A DNA stretch of 64,000 nt. It comes from Phycisphaerales bacterium. GTDB taxonomy: Bacteria; Planctomycetota; Phycisphaerae; Phycisphaerales; SM1A02. The notes beneath the pieces were generated by a model that searched no databases, had not been told where the DNA came from, and saw only the letters and a program-made list of their open reading frames with translations. A program made the translations under genes and the position numbers. Each line of letters begins with the position of its first letter. The first letter of the stretch is position 1. Below, one piece after another: positions 56,368-61,024 of this stretch. The DNA lies in the NCBI GenBank assembly GCA_029245245.1, contig JAQWPT010000011.1:124001-188000 (forward strand), written 5' to 3'.

Positions 56368-57348
56368 ATGAGCAGCGAGATCGATCAACTTCAGCAGGAA
56401 GCAACCGCATCCCTGTCCGCCGCCGCCGATGCCCAGGCCCTGGAGTCCTGGCGGATCGAGTACTTGGGCACCAAGGGTCGCCTCAAGGGCATGATGTCGC
56501 GGATGCGCGATCTCTCCAGCGAGGAACGGCCAGTGTTCGGTCAGCGAATGAATGCGCTCAAGGAGTCCCTTGAAGCCGCCTTTGAGCTGCGACAGGGCGA
56601 GGCGACATCGACACGCAGTGGGCCTCCGATTGATGTGACCGAGCCGGGGATCACCGCCCGTGGTGGCAAGCGACACGTGCTGACGCGGACCATCGACGAG
56701 CTCGTCGAGATCTTCGGTCGCATGGGGTTCTCCGTGGCGGAAGGACCCGAGGTTGAGGACGAGTGGCACAACTTCAACGCTCTGAACATTCCGGAGCACC
56801 ATCCGGCTCGTGATCCCATCGACAACTTCTTTCTTGCCGGCGATCGCATGCTCCGCTCCCAGACTTCCACGGTCCAGATCCGGGTGATGGAAAAGACGCC
56901 GCCGCCACTGAAGATCATTTCGGTGGGGCGGGTGTACCGGCCCGACACCCACGATGCGACCCACTACAGCATGTTCCACCAGGTCGAGGGCCTGTGCCTC
57001 GACCACGGGGTGACGATGATCGACCTCAAGACGGTCCTGTTCCAGTTCGCCCGGGCCTACTTCGGCCCCGAGGCGGAAGTCCGGATGCGACCGAGTTTCT
57101 TCCCCTTCACCGAGCCCTCCGCAGAAGTCGACATGAAGATGAAGATCCGCGGCCAGTGGCAGTGGGTGGAACTCGGTGGCTGCGGGATGGTCGACCCGAA
57201 TGTGCTCGAGTCACTCGACATCGACCCCGAGCAGTGGACCGGCTACGCCTTCGGGCTCGGCATTGAGCGCATCGCCATGCGCCGCTACGGGATTTCTGAT
57301 ATTCGAAACCTCTATGAGAACGACGAGCGGTTCCTCCGCCAGTTCTGA
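56368..57348 (+). CDS. pheS: Phenylalanyl-tRNA synthetase alpha subunit
   Basis: 326 residues. The N-terminal coiled-coil (SSEIDQLQQEATASLSAAAD) is followed by the class II catalytic core with VAEGPEVEDEWHNFNALNI, YRPDTHDATHYSMFHQVEGL (motif 2) and GYAFGLGIERIAMRRYGISD (motif 3). PheS and PheT form the alpha2-beta2 enzyme that charges tRNA-Phe. pheT does not follow, which is unusual, so the beta subunit must be encoded elsewhere. Confidence 0.97.
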   Translation: MSSEIDQLQQEATASLSAAADAQALESWRIEYLGTKGRLKGMMSRMRDLSSEERPVFGQRMNALKESLEAAFELRQGEATSTRSGPPIDVTEPGITARGGKRHVLTRTIDELVEIFGRMGFSVAEGPEVEDEWHNFNALNIPEHHPARDPIDNFFLAGDRMLRSQTSTVQIRVMEKTPPPLKIISVGRVYRPDTHDATHYSMFHQVEGLCLDHGVTMIDLKTVLFQFARAYFGPEAEVRMRPSFFPFTEPSAEVDMKMKIRGQWQWVELGGCGMVDPNVLESLDIDPEQWTGYAFGLGIERIAMRRYGISDIRNLYENDERFLRQF

Positions 57349-57367
57349 AGGAGCATTCCATGAGTGA
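57342..57367 (+). repeat. 26-bp direct repeat, copy 1 (pheS end to start of membrane-protein gene)
   Basis: These 26 bases cover the pheS stop codon, a GAAGGAG ribosome-binding site and the first codons of the next gene. They recur identically at 58054-58079, 712 bases away. Confidence 0.95.
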
Positions 57368-58079
57368 TGTCAGCATGATGACGCCGCCGAGTGAAGTCAG
57401 TGAAACTGCGCCACCACGTGGTCCGACAGTCTGGCCCACCGTGGTCGGTGTGCTCGGCATCGTCTGGGGAGCCTTTGGACTGTTGGCCAATCTCTGCGGT
57501 TTTTTTATGACTCCGTCCATACTCAAGGATGTGCTGCCTGAGGAAATGCAGGAGCAGATCATCAGCCAACTGCCCCCGACCCCACTTCTTCTGGCCTCAA
57601 GCATCATCGGCTTCATCCTGTCGCTGTGGCTGCTCTGGGGATCGATCAAACTGCTCCAGCGGAATGCTGCCTCCAGGGCGAGCCTCAATGCATGGTCCGT
57701 GATCACGATCCTGTTCACGATCATCGTGACCGTCTGGATGTTCGTGGGCCTGCCACCATCGCCTTCGCTGCATGGGGATTCACAGGCGCAGGCGTCGCAA
57801 ACGGCTGTTGAAGCCACGGAAGCCACGGACACCACGGACACGACGGTCACGACGGACACCAGGAACGCGACAGAGCGGCATGCACAACTCGAACAGTTTG
57901 GAATGGACGGTCCGGCGATGTCGAGATTCAACATGATCATCAACAACTGCTGTTCGGGAGTGGGGTCATGCCTGTGGCCGGTCTTCCTCCTGGTCTTCCT
58001 GAACACCGCATCCCACCGACGGGAAATCGAAACATGGGATGACTCTTCGGCTGGTTCTGAAGGAGCATTCCATGAGTGA
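57360..58079 (+). CDS. Four-helix membrane protein of unknown function, first of a tandem pair
   Basis: 239 residues with hydrophobic segments near residues 24-50, 78-97, 108-127 and 200-217. A Thr/Asp-rich low-complexity loop (ATEATDTTDTTVTTDTRNAT) lies between helices 3 and 4. The end carries LNTASHRREI, shared with the next gene. The last seven residues (SEGAFHE) and the stop codon are encoded by the copied ribosome-binding-site region of the next gene. No known family. Start at 57360 has AAGGAG seven bases upstream. Confidence 0.85.
   Translation: MSDVSMMTPPSEVSETAPPRGPTVWPTVVGVLGIVWGAFGLLANLCGFFMTPSILKDVLPEEMQEQIISQLPPTPLLLASSIIGFILSLWLLWGSIKLLQRNAASRASLNAWSVITILFTIIVTVWMFVGLPPSPSLHGDSQAQASQTAVEATEATDTTDTTVTTDTRNATERHAQLEQFGMDGPAMSRFNMIINNCCSGVGSCLWPVFLLVFLNTASHRREIETWDDSSAGSEGAFHE
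58054..58079 (+). repeat. 26-bp direct repeat, copy 2 (gene 1 tail to gene 2 start)
   Basis: Identical to 57342-57367. Here the bases encode the last residues of the first paralogue and at the same time the ribosome-binding site and start of the second. Confidence 0.95.
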
Positions 58080-58671
58080 GCAGATGACGCCCCCTCCGGA
58101 TGGCAACAGCATGCCACAGGGCCAACCCGTCTCTGCAGGCCCACGCAGTTCCTGGCCGACCGTATTCGGTGTCATCGGAATCATCTGGGCATCATTCGGA
58201 ATGCTGTGCAACCTCGGCGGCCTTGGCAACGTCGGGTACGTGTCGTGGGCCTATCTCATCGTCTCGTTGCTGGTCGGATTCGCCATGTGCCTCTGGCTGC
58301 TCTTTGGGTCGATCAGCCTGATCCGCCGCAAACCATCCAGTCGATCAACACTCGTCTCATGGTCGATCATCGAGATCGTGTTCATCATCGTGCTGGGCGG
58401 CTGGGGACTTGGGTTCGTGGACCAGATCACCGAGATGCTGGTGGAAGCGGAAATGGCGAATCCCCAATCCTCGTTTGGGAATACAGAGAACTTGTCGGAA
58501 GAAGATCTCACCCAGATCATGGCGGTCACGGTCTACGGCTTCTCAGGGTGCTCCATCGTCTTGTCGATGATCTGGCCCGTGCTCCTGCTGATCTTCCTGA
58601 ACACCGCATCCCACCGCCGGGAAATTGACAGCTGGGCATCCAGCGAGTCAGGGGTGTTCGGCGATGCCTGA
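58072..58671 (+). CDS. Four-helix membrane protein of unknown function, second of a tandem pair
   Basis: 199 residues, paralogous to the preceding gene: both share a Pro-rich start, a SWPTVFGVIGIIWASFGMLC-type first helix, a (S)LWLLFGSISL segment and the end FLNTASHRREI. The Thr/Asp loop of the first copy is missing. Its start overlaps the first copy's stop by eight bases, and its own stop overlaps the tyrS start by eight bases. No function is recognised. Confidence 0.87.
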   Translation: MSEQMTPPPDGNSMPQGQPVSAGPRSSWPTVFGVIGIIWASFGMLCNLGGLGNVGYVSWAYLIVSLLVGFAMCLWLLFGSISLIRRKPSSRSTLVSWSIIEIVFIIVLGGWGLGFVDQITEMLVEAEMANPQSSFGNTENLSEEDLTQIMAVTVYGFSGCSIVLSMIWPVLLLIFLNTASHRREIDSWASSESGVFGDA

Positions 58672-59983
58672 TCCCGGATTCCTCGATGAACTGGCCTGGC
58701 GGGGAATGCTCCACCAGACGACCGATGACACTGGTCTGCCATCGTTCCTGTCCACTGCGGGCCGCGTCGCCTACTGCGGATTCGATCCGACTGGTTCCAG
58801 CCTGACCATTGGAAACTTCGTGGCCATCAAGTTGCTCGCCCACTGGCAGCGGTGTGGTCACACGCCGATCGTCCTGATGGGAGGAGGCACGGGTCTCATC
58901 GGTGATCCCTCCGGGAAGGATGCCGAGCGGCAGTTGTTGAGTGCCGAGCAGGTCCAGGACAATGTCGAATCCTGCCGTCGGATCTTCGAGCGTGTGCTTG
59001 ATTTCGACCCATCGAAGCCCAACGCCGCCCGCATCGTCAACAATGCGGACTGGCTCTGCGGCCTCGGCTACATCGACATGCTCCGCGATGTCGGCAAGCA
59101 CTTCTCGGTCAACATGATGATCCAGAAGGACTCGGTGCGCGATCGACTTGAGAACCGCGAGCAGGGGATCAGTTACACCGAGTTCTCGTACATGATTCTG
59201 CAGGCCTACGACTTTCTGCACCTTCGTCGCAGCGAGGACTGCACGGTGCAGATCGCCGGCTCCGACCAGTACGGCAACATCGTCGCGGGCATCGACCTGA
59301 TCCGACGTGATCTCGTCGATGCCACCGAGAGCGAGCCGCGTGGCTACGGAATTACGGCTCCGCTGATCACGAAGTCCGACGGCACCAAGTTCGGCAAGAC
59401 CGAATCCGGCGCCGTCTGGCTGACCGCTGACCGCACCAGCCCCTATGCCTTCCACCAGTTCTGGCTCAACACCTCCGATGCCGATGCCGGCAAGTACCTC
59501 CGGTGGTTCACGTTCCTCGGCCGTTCGGAGATCGAGGATATCGAGGCTCGTCATGCCGAGTCGCCGCAGCAACGACTGGCCCAGGCCACCGTGGCCGACG
59601 AGATGACCCGGCTGATGCATGGAGAGGACGAATTGGTTCGGGCCAAGTCTGCAGCGGGGGCGCTCTTCAGCGGCAACGTGGCCGGACTCGACGAGCAACT
59701 GCTTGATGAGGTCTTCAAGGATGTGGCCGGTTCAGAGCATGCATGCTCCACGCTTGAGGGCGAAGGCGTGCTGCTGCTTGATCTGCTGCCGGAGACGACC
59801 CTGGCCGCCTCCAAGCGGGAGGCACGGGAGTTCCTCTCCAATGGGTCCGTTTCGGTCAATGGCACCCGGGTCGAGAAGGATGCCGCCCTGGACCACCGGC
59901 TGCGCAGCGATGACCTGCTGCATGGGCGCATGATCCTCATTCGCCGGGGCAAGAAGACCTGGCATGCGACACGTTGGGCCTGA
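58664..59983 (+). CDS. tyrS: Tyrosyl-tRNA synthetase
   Basis: 439 residues. The class I site is present in variant form as FDPTGSSLTIGNFVAIKLL (HIGH replaced by TIGN) and the KMSKS-like loop is KSDGTKFGKTESG. Tyrosine-binding residues are in FSYMILQAYDFLHL and IAGSDQYGNIVAG. A C-terminal S4 RNA-binding domain (about 370-435) follows. It charges tRNA-Tyr. Its stop codon directly abuts that of the converging YbbR gene in the palindrome TGATCA. Confidence 0.97.
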   Translation: MPDPGFLDELAWRGMLHQTTDDTGLPSFLSTAGRVAYCGFDPTGSSLTIGNFVAIKLLAHWQRCGHTPIVLMGGGTGLIGDPSGKDAERQLLSAEQVQDNVESCRRIFERVLDFDPSKPNAARIVNNADWLCGLGYIDMLRDVGKHFSVNMMIQKDSVRDRLENREQGISYTEFSYMILQAYDFLHLRRSEDCTVQIAGSDQYGNIVAGIDLIRRDLVDATESEPRGYGITAPLITKSDGTKFGKTESGAVWLTADRTSPYAFHQFWLNTSDADAGKYLRWFTFLGRSEIEDIEARHAESPQQRLAQATVADEMTRLMHGEDELVRAKSAAGALFSGNVAGLDEQLLDEVFKDVAGSEHACSTLEGEGVLLLDLLPETTLAASKREAREFLSNGSVSVNGTRVEKDAALDHRLRSDDLLHGRMILIRRGKKTWHATRWA

Positions 59984-61024
59984 TCAGGGTGTGGCTGGAG
60001 TCGCCGTGGCGGCGGGGATCTTCGTGATCTGCAGCGTGATGTCCGGATGGGCGTTTCCATCGACGGAGGCGCTGACGGTTTCACCGGTGCCGTCAGGGGC
60101 AAGGGCGAGAAAGTAGGCGACCGGTTTCGACTTGATGCCCTGTTCCAGTTCCAGGTTGGACAGGGGCACGATGCCCACCACGCGTGGGCTGGGGCCGTCG
60201 TTTGATTCCAGTTGTTCCGCCAGGGCAGTGCTGGCTTCAACTTGAACCGATCGAAGCAACGAGTCGGGAAGTGTCACCTTGAACGACGTCATCACGTCCG
60301 GGTTGACCAGGATCTGGAGGTACACCTTGTCCAGGGTGATGCTCCGGTTTCTCGCCACGAGCCGGAAGGAGACACGTGCGGTGGCCGGCTCGATCTGGAC
60401 ATTGGCCAGATCGCTGAACTCTTCGGGCAGGCGAAGGCTGCCGTTGATCGTGTGCAGGACGCCCGGCTCCAGGTGCTGGATTTCCCTCGCGTCGACGACG
60501 GCCTCCAGGGTCGGGCTTTCCGGCAATCGGGCTGCTTCGTCCTTGGGGAGGGTGATGGTGGCTTTTTCCGGACTGACCACGGAGTCCTGTACCAGGGCGC
60601 CTTCAGGCATCCGGGCCCGGACGACGGCATCGACCGAGGCCAGTTCGGTGATGTGCACCTGGAAGTTCGATGGATCCACCGAGTCGATCGAGACTCCCGT
60701 CTCGCGTACTTCCGGGAGTGATTGGATGAGCATCGCCAGGTCTTCGAACGTGTGCATCCCGTTGCGGGCCGGGCTGTTGATCGAGAGTGTTTCGTCCTGC
60801 ATGAGCGTTCGCATCTTGTTGATGGCTCGCTTGGGGCCACCCAGTTGCAGCGTCACCTCGGTATGGGAGGGCTGCACCACGTAGTGCTTTGCGTTGGTGG
60901 CGGTGAAACCCAGCCGAGTCTGCAGGGTGACATCCTCGCTGGTGTAATCTTCGGCCACCAGCCAGATCAGCAGGGCGACGATCGTGACCAGGATCATGCT
61001 GGCAAAGTCGGGTCGACGGTTCAT
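59984..61024 (-). CDS. YbbR-domain protein, CdaA regulator-like
   Basis: 346 residues with one N-terminal membrane helix (FASMILVTIVALLIWLVAED) and a large external part of repeated YbbR-type beta domains (for example around VTLQLGGPKRAI and VDAVVRARMPEG). CdaR, the YbbR-domain partner in Firmicutes, binds CdaA and tunes c-di-AMP output. The four-base overlap with cdaA supports the same pairing here. The tail is Ala/Thr/Pro-rich. glmM, the third member in Firmicutes, is absent. Confidence 0.9.
   Translation of the reverse strand: MNRRPDFASMILVTIVALLIWLVAEDYTSEDVTLQTRLGFTATNAKHYVVQPSHTEVTLQLGGPKRAINKMRTLMQDETLSINSPARNGMHTFEDLAMLIQSLPEVRETGVSIDSVDPSNFQVHITELASVDAVVRARMPEGALVQDSVVSPEKATITLPKDEAARLPESPTLEAVVDAREIQHLEPGVLHTINGSLRLPEEFSDLANVQIEPATARVSFRLVARNRSITLDKVYLQILVNPDVMTSFKVTLPDSLLRSVQVEASTALAEQLESNDGPSPRVVGIVPLSNLELEQGIKSKPVAYFLALAPDGTGETVSASVDGNAHPDITLQITKIPAATATPATP

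Follow-up and report, generated by a model that had tools for sequence, protein, structure and literature searches.

How did two homologous genes come to lie side by side between pheS and tyrS with the same 26 nucleotides at the start of each, while the bodies of the genes diverged? The locus lies in a 64,000-nucleotide stretch of a Phycisphaerales genome (the window), where the gene order is pheS-X1-X2-tyrS, followed on the opposite strand by a gene that we take to be cdaR (59984-61024; other features in Table 1). X1 and X2 are adjacent, in the same orientation and homologous (BLASTP identity 33%, E 2e-34), and homology this clear rules out independent origins. Searches found no tRNA gene between 50000 and 64000 and no promoter-like or terminator-like site between 56200 and 60100. 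A literature search returned no title or abstract concerning a pheS-X-tyrS locus.

Table 1. Features of the pheS-tyrS region, numbered by position in the window.
Feature	Position	Strand	Content or basis
pheS, phenylalanine--tRNA ligase alpha subunit	56368..57348	+	NCBIfam TIGR00468, 301 bits (cut-off 237); Pfam PF01409
26-bp block, copy 1	57342..57367	+	pheS end and stop, ribosome-binding site, X1 start; genome-unique pair
X1, 239-aa predicted membrane protein, first paralogue	57360..58079	+	ORF, homology to X2, hydropathy, tree
X1 loop, about 26 residues	57507..57584	+	alignments: present in outgroup genera, absent from X2, G001 and G002
9-bp repeats, Thr/Asp-rich stretch in X1	57807..57869	+	repeat family D1
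25-bp patch, X1 copy	57994..58018	+	such a run in 0/2000 codon shuffles (3' conservation not taken into account)
26-bp block, copy 2	58054..58079	+	codes X1 tail and stop; doubles as X2 start region
X2, 199-aa predicted four-helix membrane protein, second paralogue	58072..58671	+	ORF, tree, model with mean pLDDT 86
25-bp patch, X2 copy	58592..58616	+	exact match to X1 copy
X2 stop / tyrS start overlap	58664..58671	+	8 nt, ATGCCTGA; geometry as at X1/X2
tyrS, tyrosine--tRNA ligase	58664..59983	+	NCBIfam TIGR00234, 355 bits (cut-off 114)

An earlier note on this DNA had claimed that a block at the end of pheS recurs unchanged 712 bases downstream, and that the recurrence encodes SEGAFHE and the stop of X1 along with the start region of X2. 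Both claims were borne out. The block, GTTCTGAAGGAGCATTCCATGAGTGA, is identical at 26 of 26 positions with a spacing of 712 bp. The first copy takes in the final 4 nt of the pheS reading frame before its stop codon, the stop codon TGA itself (57346-57348), a GGAG ribosome-binding site and the start of X1 at 57360. The second, read in the X1 frame as GGT TCT GAA GGA GCA TTC CAT GAG TGA, gives the X1 end (G)SEGAFHE-stop and carries the X2 start at 58072, and the X1 stop and X2 start overlap by 8 nt (ATGAGTGA). At the upstream border six of the ten adjoining nucleotides also match, and beyond them similarity is at roughly the level of chance; at the downstream border the match breaks off at once, with nothing above chance. 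In a scan of the whole 2.69-Mb genome allowing up to three mismatches, the 22-nt core of the block (TTCTGAAGGAGCATTCCATGAG) was found at these two sites only, which rules out a chance occurrence or a common start signal; the reversed pattern gave no matches in the same genome.

The second copy of the block also contains sequence from the upstream gene. The pheS-derived GTTC and stop codon TGA recur at 58054-58060, where they have no evident function, and in the relatives compared at this point the pheS end reads TTC-stop or TTT-stop.

We compared the locus among relatives of the window's genome. The genus sample comprised three genomes, the window's own and two others (G001 and G002), and a scan of the genome collection for tyrS found no further member. 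G001 and G002, whose pheS is 88-90% identical to that of the window, each have one X between pheS and tyrS, and its stop overlaps the tyrS start (ATGCCTGA in G001, ATGTCTGA in G002). The next tyrS loci have a TyrS identity of at most 84%, and the nearest four of them have one X. When all genomes with both pheS and tyrS in the fetched stretch were counted, 13 of 15 (G001, G002 and 11 more) had one X and two (the window's and G021) had two X, a proportion that is no population estimate, since the set was partly picked for X matches and the count took in only those stretches where tyrS was found. Three X follow pheS in G009, where tyrS is outside the stretch; the contig of G022 ends at the locus and has one complete X and a partial second one. 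From these copy counts, a single X is the usual state, with doubling more than once in the family. No other genome had both X1 and X2 among the three genus genomes or the 30 tyrS loci analysed of 80 kept. The earlier note had held that relatives with a single gene and both flanks would speak against duplication. Such relatives exist, yet they represent the state before duplication and do not refute it.

Adjacent homologues in the same orientation, relatives with a single copy between the same flanks and upstream-gene sequence at the joint are all features of a tandem duplication. The proposal in the earlier note of a 5' breakpoint at the end of pheS is well supported by two of these features, as the second block holds the pheS end and the relatives have the order pheS-X-tyrS. 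The GTTC and stop codon would be repeated at the joint because the left breakpoint lay inside the last pheS codons. A microhomology of 7-8 nt (GTTCTGA) between the ancestral X tail, which encodes G-S-E (in G001, GGGTCCGAG), and the pheS end could plausibly have set the joining point. The other X arrays (G021, G009 and G022) had no joint repeats longer than 9 bp.

If the duplication were recent, the two copies should also be each other's closest relatives, and they were not. In a tree of 20 rows hand-picked from the loci, X2, G001 and G002 formed a clade with support of 100/98 and X1 fell outside it; a sister relationship of X1 and X2 was rejected (AU p 0.0066). Later AU tests used 13 of those rows, and rejected the sister relationship both for the region before the 3' patch only (p 0.0033) and with the loop removed too (p 0.011). 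The best tree of 13 rows placed X1, X2, G001 and G002 in one clade, with weak support (48/61 or 64/60), and placements of X1 with three other groups instead were not rejected (p 0.12-0.36; with all columns 0.16, 0.12 and 0.18). X1 may have split off at the base of the genus clade or deeper. Because X1 and X2 are not closest relatives, their bodies would predate the separation of the three genus members.

These results bear on the plain reading of the earlier note, in which the duplication would be a recent one in the lineage of the window, X1 would have diverged very fast and one-sidedly since, and the junction would be left over. The identical ends agree with such an account, as does the fact that X1 has its highest all-column identity (37%) to X2. 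The tandem homologues that it described are there, but the rejection of X1 and X2 as sisters (p 0.003-0.011) makes it too simple, and the X1 loop resembles that of the outgroup and is absent from X2, G001 and G002. We consider a plain recent duplication quite unlikely. On tree placement and the outgroup-like loop, a recent duplication of the short-loop gene of the genus is also an unlikely source of the X1 body.

Our preferred reading, to which we assign a probability of about 0.5, is that the tandem duplication is an older one whose left breakpoint lay in pheS, that X1 was lost in the sister species and that the ends of the genes were refreshed by short-tract conversion or recombination. Counting against it is the loss of X1 that must be assumed in one or two sister species. 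The main rival avoids these losses in G001 and G002. It supposes a recent tandem duplication in the lineage of the window and then the replacement of most of X1 by a divergent X allele that came from a different lineage, with the block and a 3' patch as remnants of the recent copy, and it brings young ends and an old body into one picture. The GC3 of X1 (0.69) is in its favor when compared with X2, pheS, tyrS and cdaR (0.77-0.81), though rpoA is at 0.73. Against it, a search of 181 family genomes turned up no close donor: outside the genus, the best matches to X1 are about 27-42% identical. It would also require two recombination steps within a short gene. We regard replacement of X1 as conceivable but doubtful; a plain recent duplication, selection alone and an assembly artefact are each less likely.

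The patch just mentioned is a second identical stretch, which the earlier note had not described. The 25-bp sequence TCTTCCTGAACACCGCATCCCACCG is present in both genes near their 3' ends, inside coding sequence (Table 1). The codon alignment of X1 and X2 is 55% identical overall, and a run of 25 bp was reached in none of 2000 codon shuffles, a test that excludes the 26-bp block and takes no account of the 3' end being a conserved part of the protein. Given the amino acids, the probability of the synonymous identity in the patch from codon usage is about 0.003. No significant identical run was found in seven other pairs among X1, X2, G001, G002 and G006. When 20 genes were compared in all 190 pairings, a longer exact match occurred in just one, the congeneric pair G132-G006; a 23-bp match between G021a and G021b was dropped from this comparison because these ORFs overlap in the same DNA. 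The patch is longer than the overall divergence predicts, as expected for gene conversion. That both ends of the unit are alike, the start signal and the 3' patch, argues that the ends are younger than the bodies.

The age of the block can be judged against other sites. The fourfold-degenerate sites of pheS and tyrS are 45-53% identical within the genus, so neutral sites are near saturation. The earlier note had proposed estimating the divergence of the paralogues and of the block: the proteins are 33% identical, and the two copies of the block in the window differ by 0 edits, compared with 2 between the window and G001, 7 between the window and G002, and 5 between G001 and G002. The start region is thus slow to change, yet not frozen. 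With no more than 2 edits separating the window from G001, the 26-bp identity stands out less than the fourfold sites would lead one to expect. For copies dating back to the species split, an unchanged block would have a probability of very roughly 1-13% (a Poisson estimate with 2-5 changes expected).

The earlier note had left the choice between selection on the block as a start signal and conversion. An old duplication with the block frozen by selection alone would agree with the pheS-X junction of G001, which is nearly the same (2 edits), and the overlapping stop and start may need such a geometry. G002, however, is off by 7 edits, and the pheS stop is TGA, TAA or TAG across the three genus species. 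Selection may slow change, but it leaves unexplained both the pheS-derived GTTCTGA at the second site, which is needless for a start, and the 25-bp patch, which sits in coding sequence. A better fit is conversion over short tracts, or a later recombination at the junction, and it seems very unlikely that selection alone kept the block unchanged.

An artefact of assembly, in which the X genes of two strains were joined through the 26-bp or 25-bp identical words, was also considered. The genome is in 38 contigs with an estimated contamination of 2.61%, each identical stretch has roughly the length of one assembly word, and two copies occur in only one of the three genus genomes. Against such a join, X1 and X2 are both intact and in frame with the block, and it would need an X1 that already bore the block at both ends. 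We give this possibility very little weight.

In the older duplication that we favor, X at a pheS-X-tyrS locus would have been duplicated in tandem with the left breakpoint within the last pheS codons, and the joint would thereby have come to carry the pheS end, the ribosome-binding site and the start codon. X1 would read through the joint and stop at the TGA of ATGAGTGA, where X2 starts, probably coupled to the translation of X1. We infer that the bodies split before the three genus members separated, and that X1 was then lost in G001 and G002. In the lineage of the window, the identity of the 26-bp block and of the 25-bp 3' patch suggests that gene conversion or repeated recombination renewed both of them. 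A broader proposal, that the space between pheS and tyrS is an exchange site where bodies of fast-evolving membrane genes are swapped between lineages by recombination in conserved ends, so that the window has two alleles side by side, we regard as unlikely.

With good confidence (mean pLDDT 86), X2 was modeled as a helical membrane protein in which a short fifth helix accompanies four long ones, in agreement with hydropathy. Neither X1 nor X2 matched a Pfam or NCBIfam family above its cut-off; X1 scored 20.2 bits with Yip1 (PF04893; gathering cut-off 28.6; E 5.8e-4) and X2 scored 13.2 bits with tetraspanin (PF00335; gathering cut-off 32.1). The X2 model had no Foldseek match with E < 0.001, and its highest Z, 10.6 to tetraspanin CD81 (VIA-align; rmsd 5.4 over 158 residues), is in a range common for helical bundles. 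The position between pheS and tyrS and the overlapping start and stop suggest that X2 is co-translated with tyrS.

Several further observations concern X genes in general. X between pheS and tyrS evolves far faster than its neighbors, X2 being about 39-47% identical to the X of G001 and G002 when pheS and tyrS are at 88-90%. The two or three X in a row after pheS in G009, G021 and G022, with no repeated joint blocks, represent repeated expansion at the same place. G036 (L199 4269-4910) and G179 (L201 4012-4653) have an X1-like gene away from pheS and tyrS, with partly shared surroundings; at the usual place, G036 carries a diverged X as well (L200). A third X homologue of the window's own genome, a distant one, lies on another contig (L207 3525-4157, G000:C30).

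We view this locus as bearing an ordinary mark of tandem duplication, with ends copied or refreshed later. It is a small, readable case in which the bodies of tandem paralogues in an operon diverge, their ends stay identical and an overlapping stop and start moves as a unit, and it is a warning against dating a duplication by an unchanged joint. The membrane gene between pheS and tyrS is uncharacterised, evolves far faster than its neighbors and is repeatedly present in two or three copies, and it may merit study at the level of the family.

X1 and X2 resemble the Yip1 and tetraspanin families in being small multi-helix membrane proteins, and differ from them in that all of their scores are under the Pfam cut-offs and the Z to CD81 is usual for helical bundles. 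Tandem gene duplication with a short sequence at the joint is a general mechanism. The locus is like other such duplications in that a second copy is joined to the end of the upstream gene and single-copy relatives exist, and unlike them in that the bodies are apparently older than the ends and the joint may have been refreshed. Bacterial paralogues have been described as undergoing gene conversion (PMC12046097, PMC4534519). The locus differs in that its tracts are at the ends of adjacent genes, one of them a start region, and in that the conversion event is putative, as is its direction; it shares with those cases short identical tracts in otherwise diverged paralogues.
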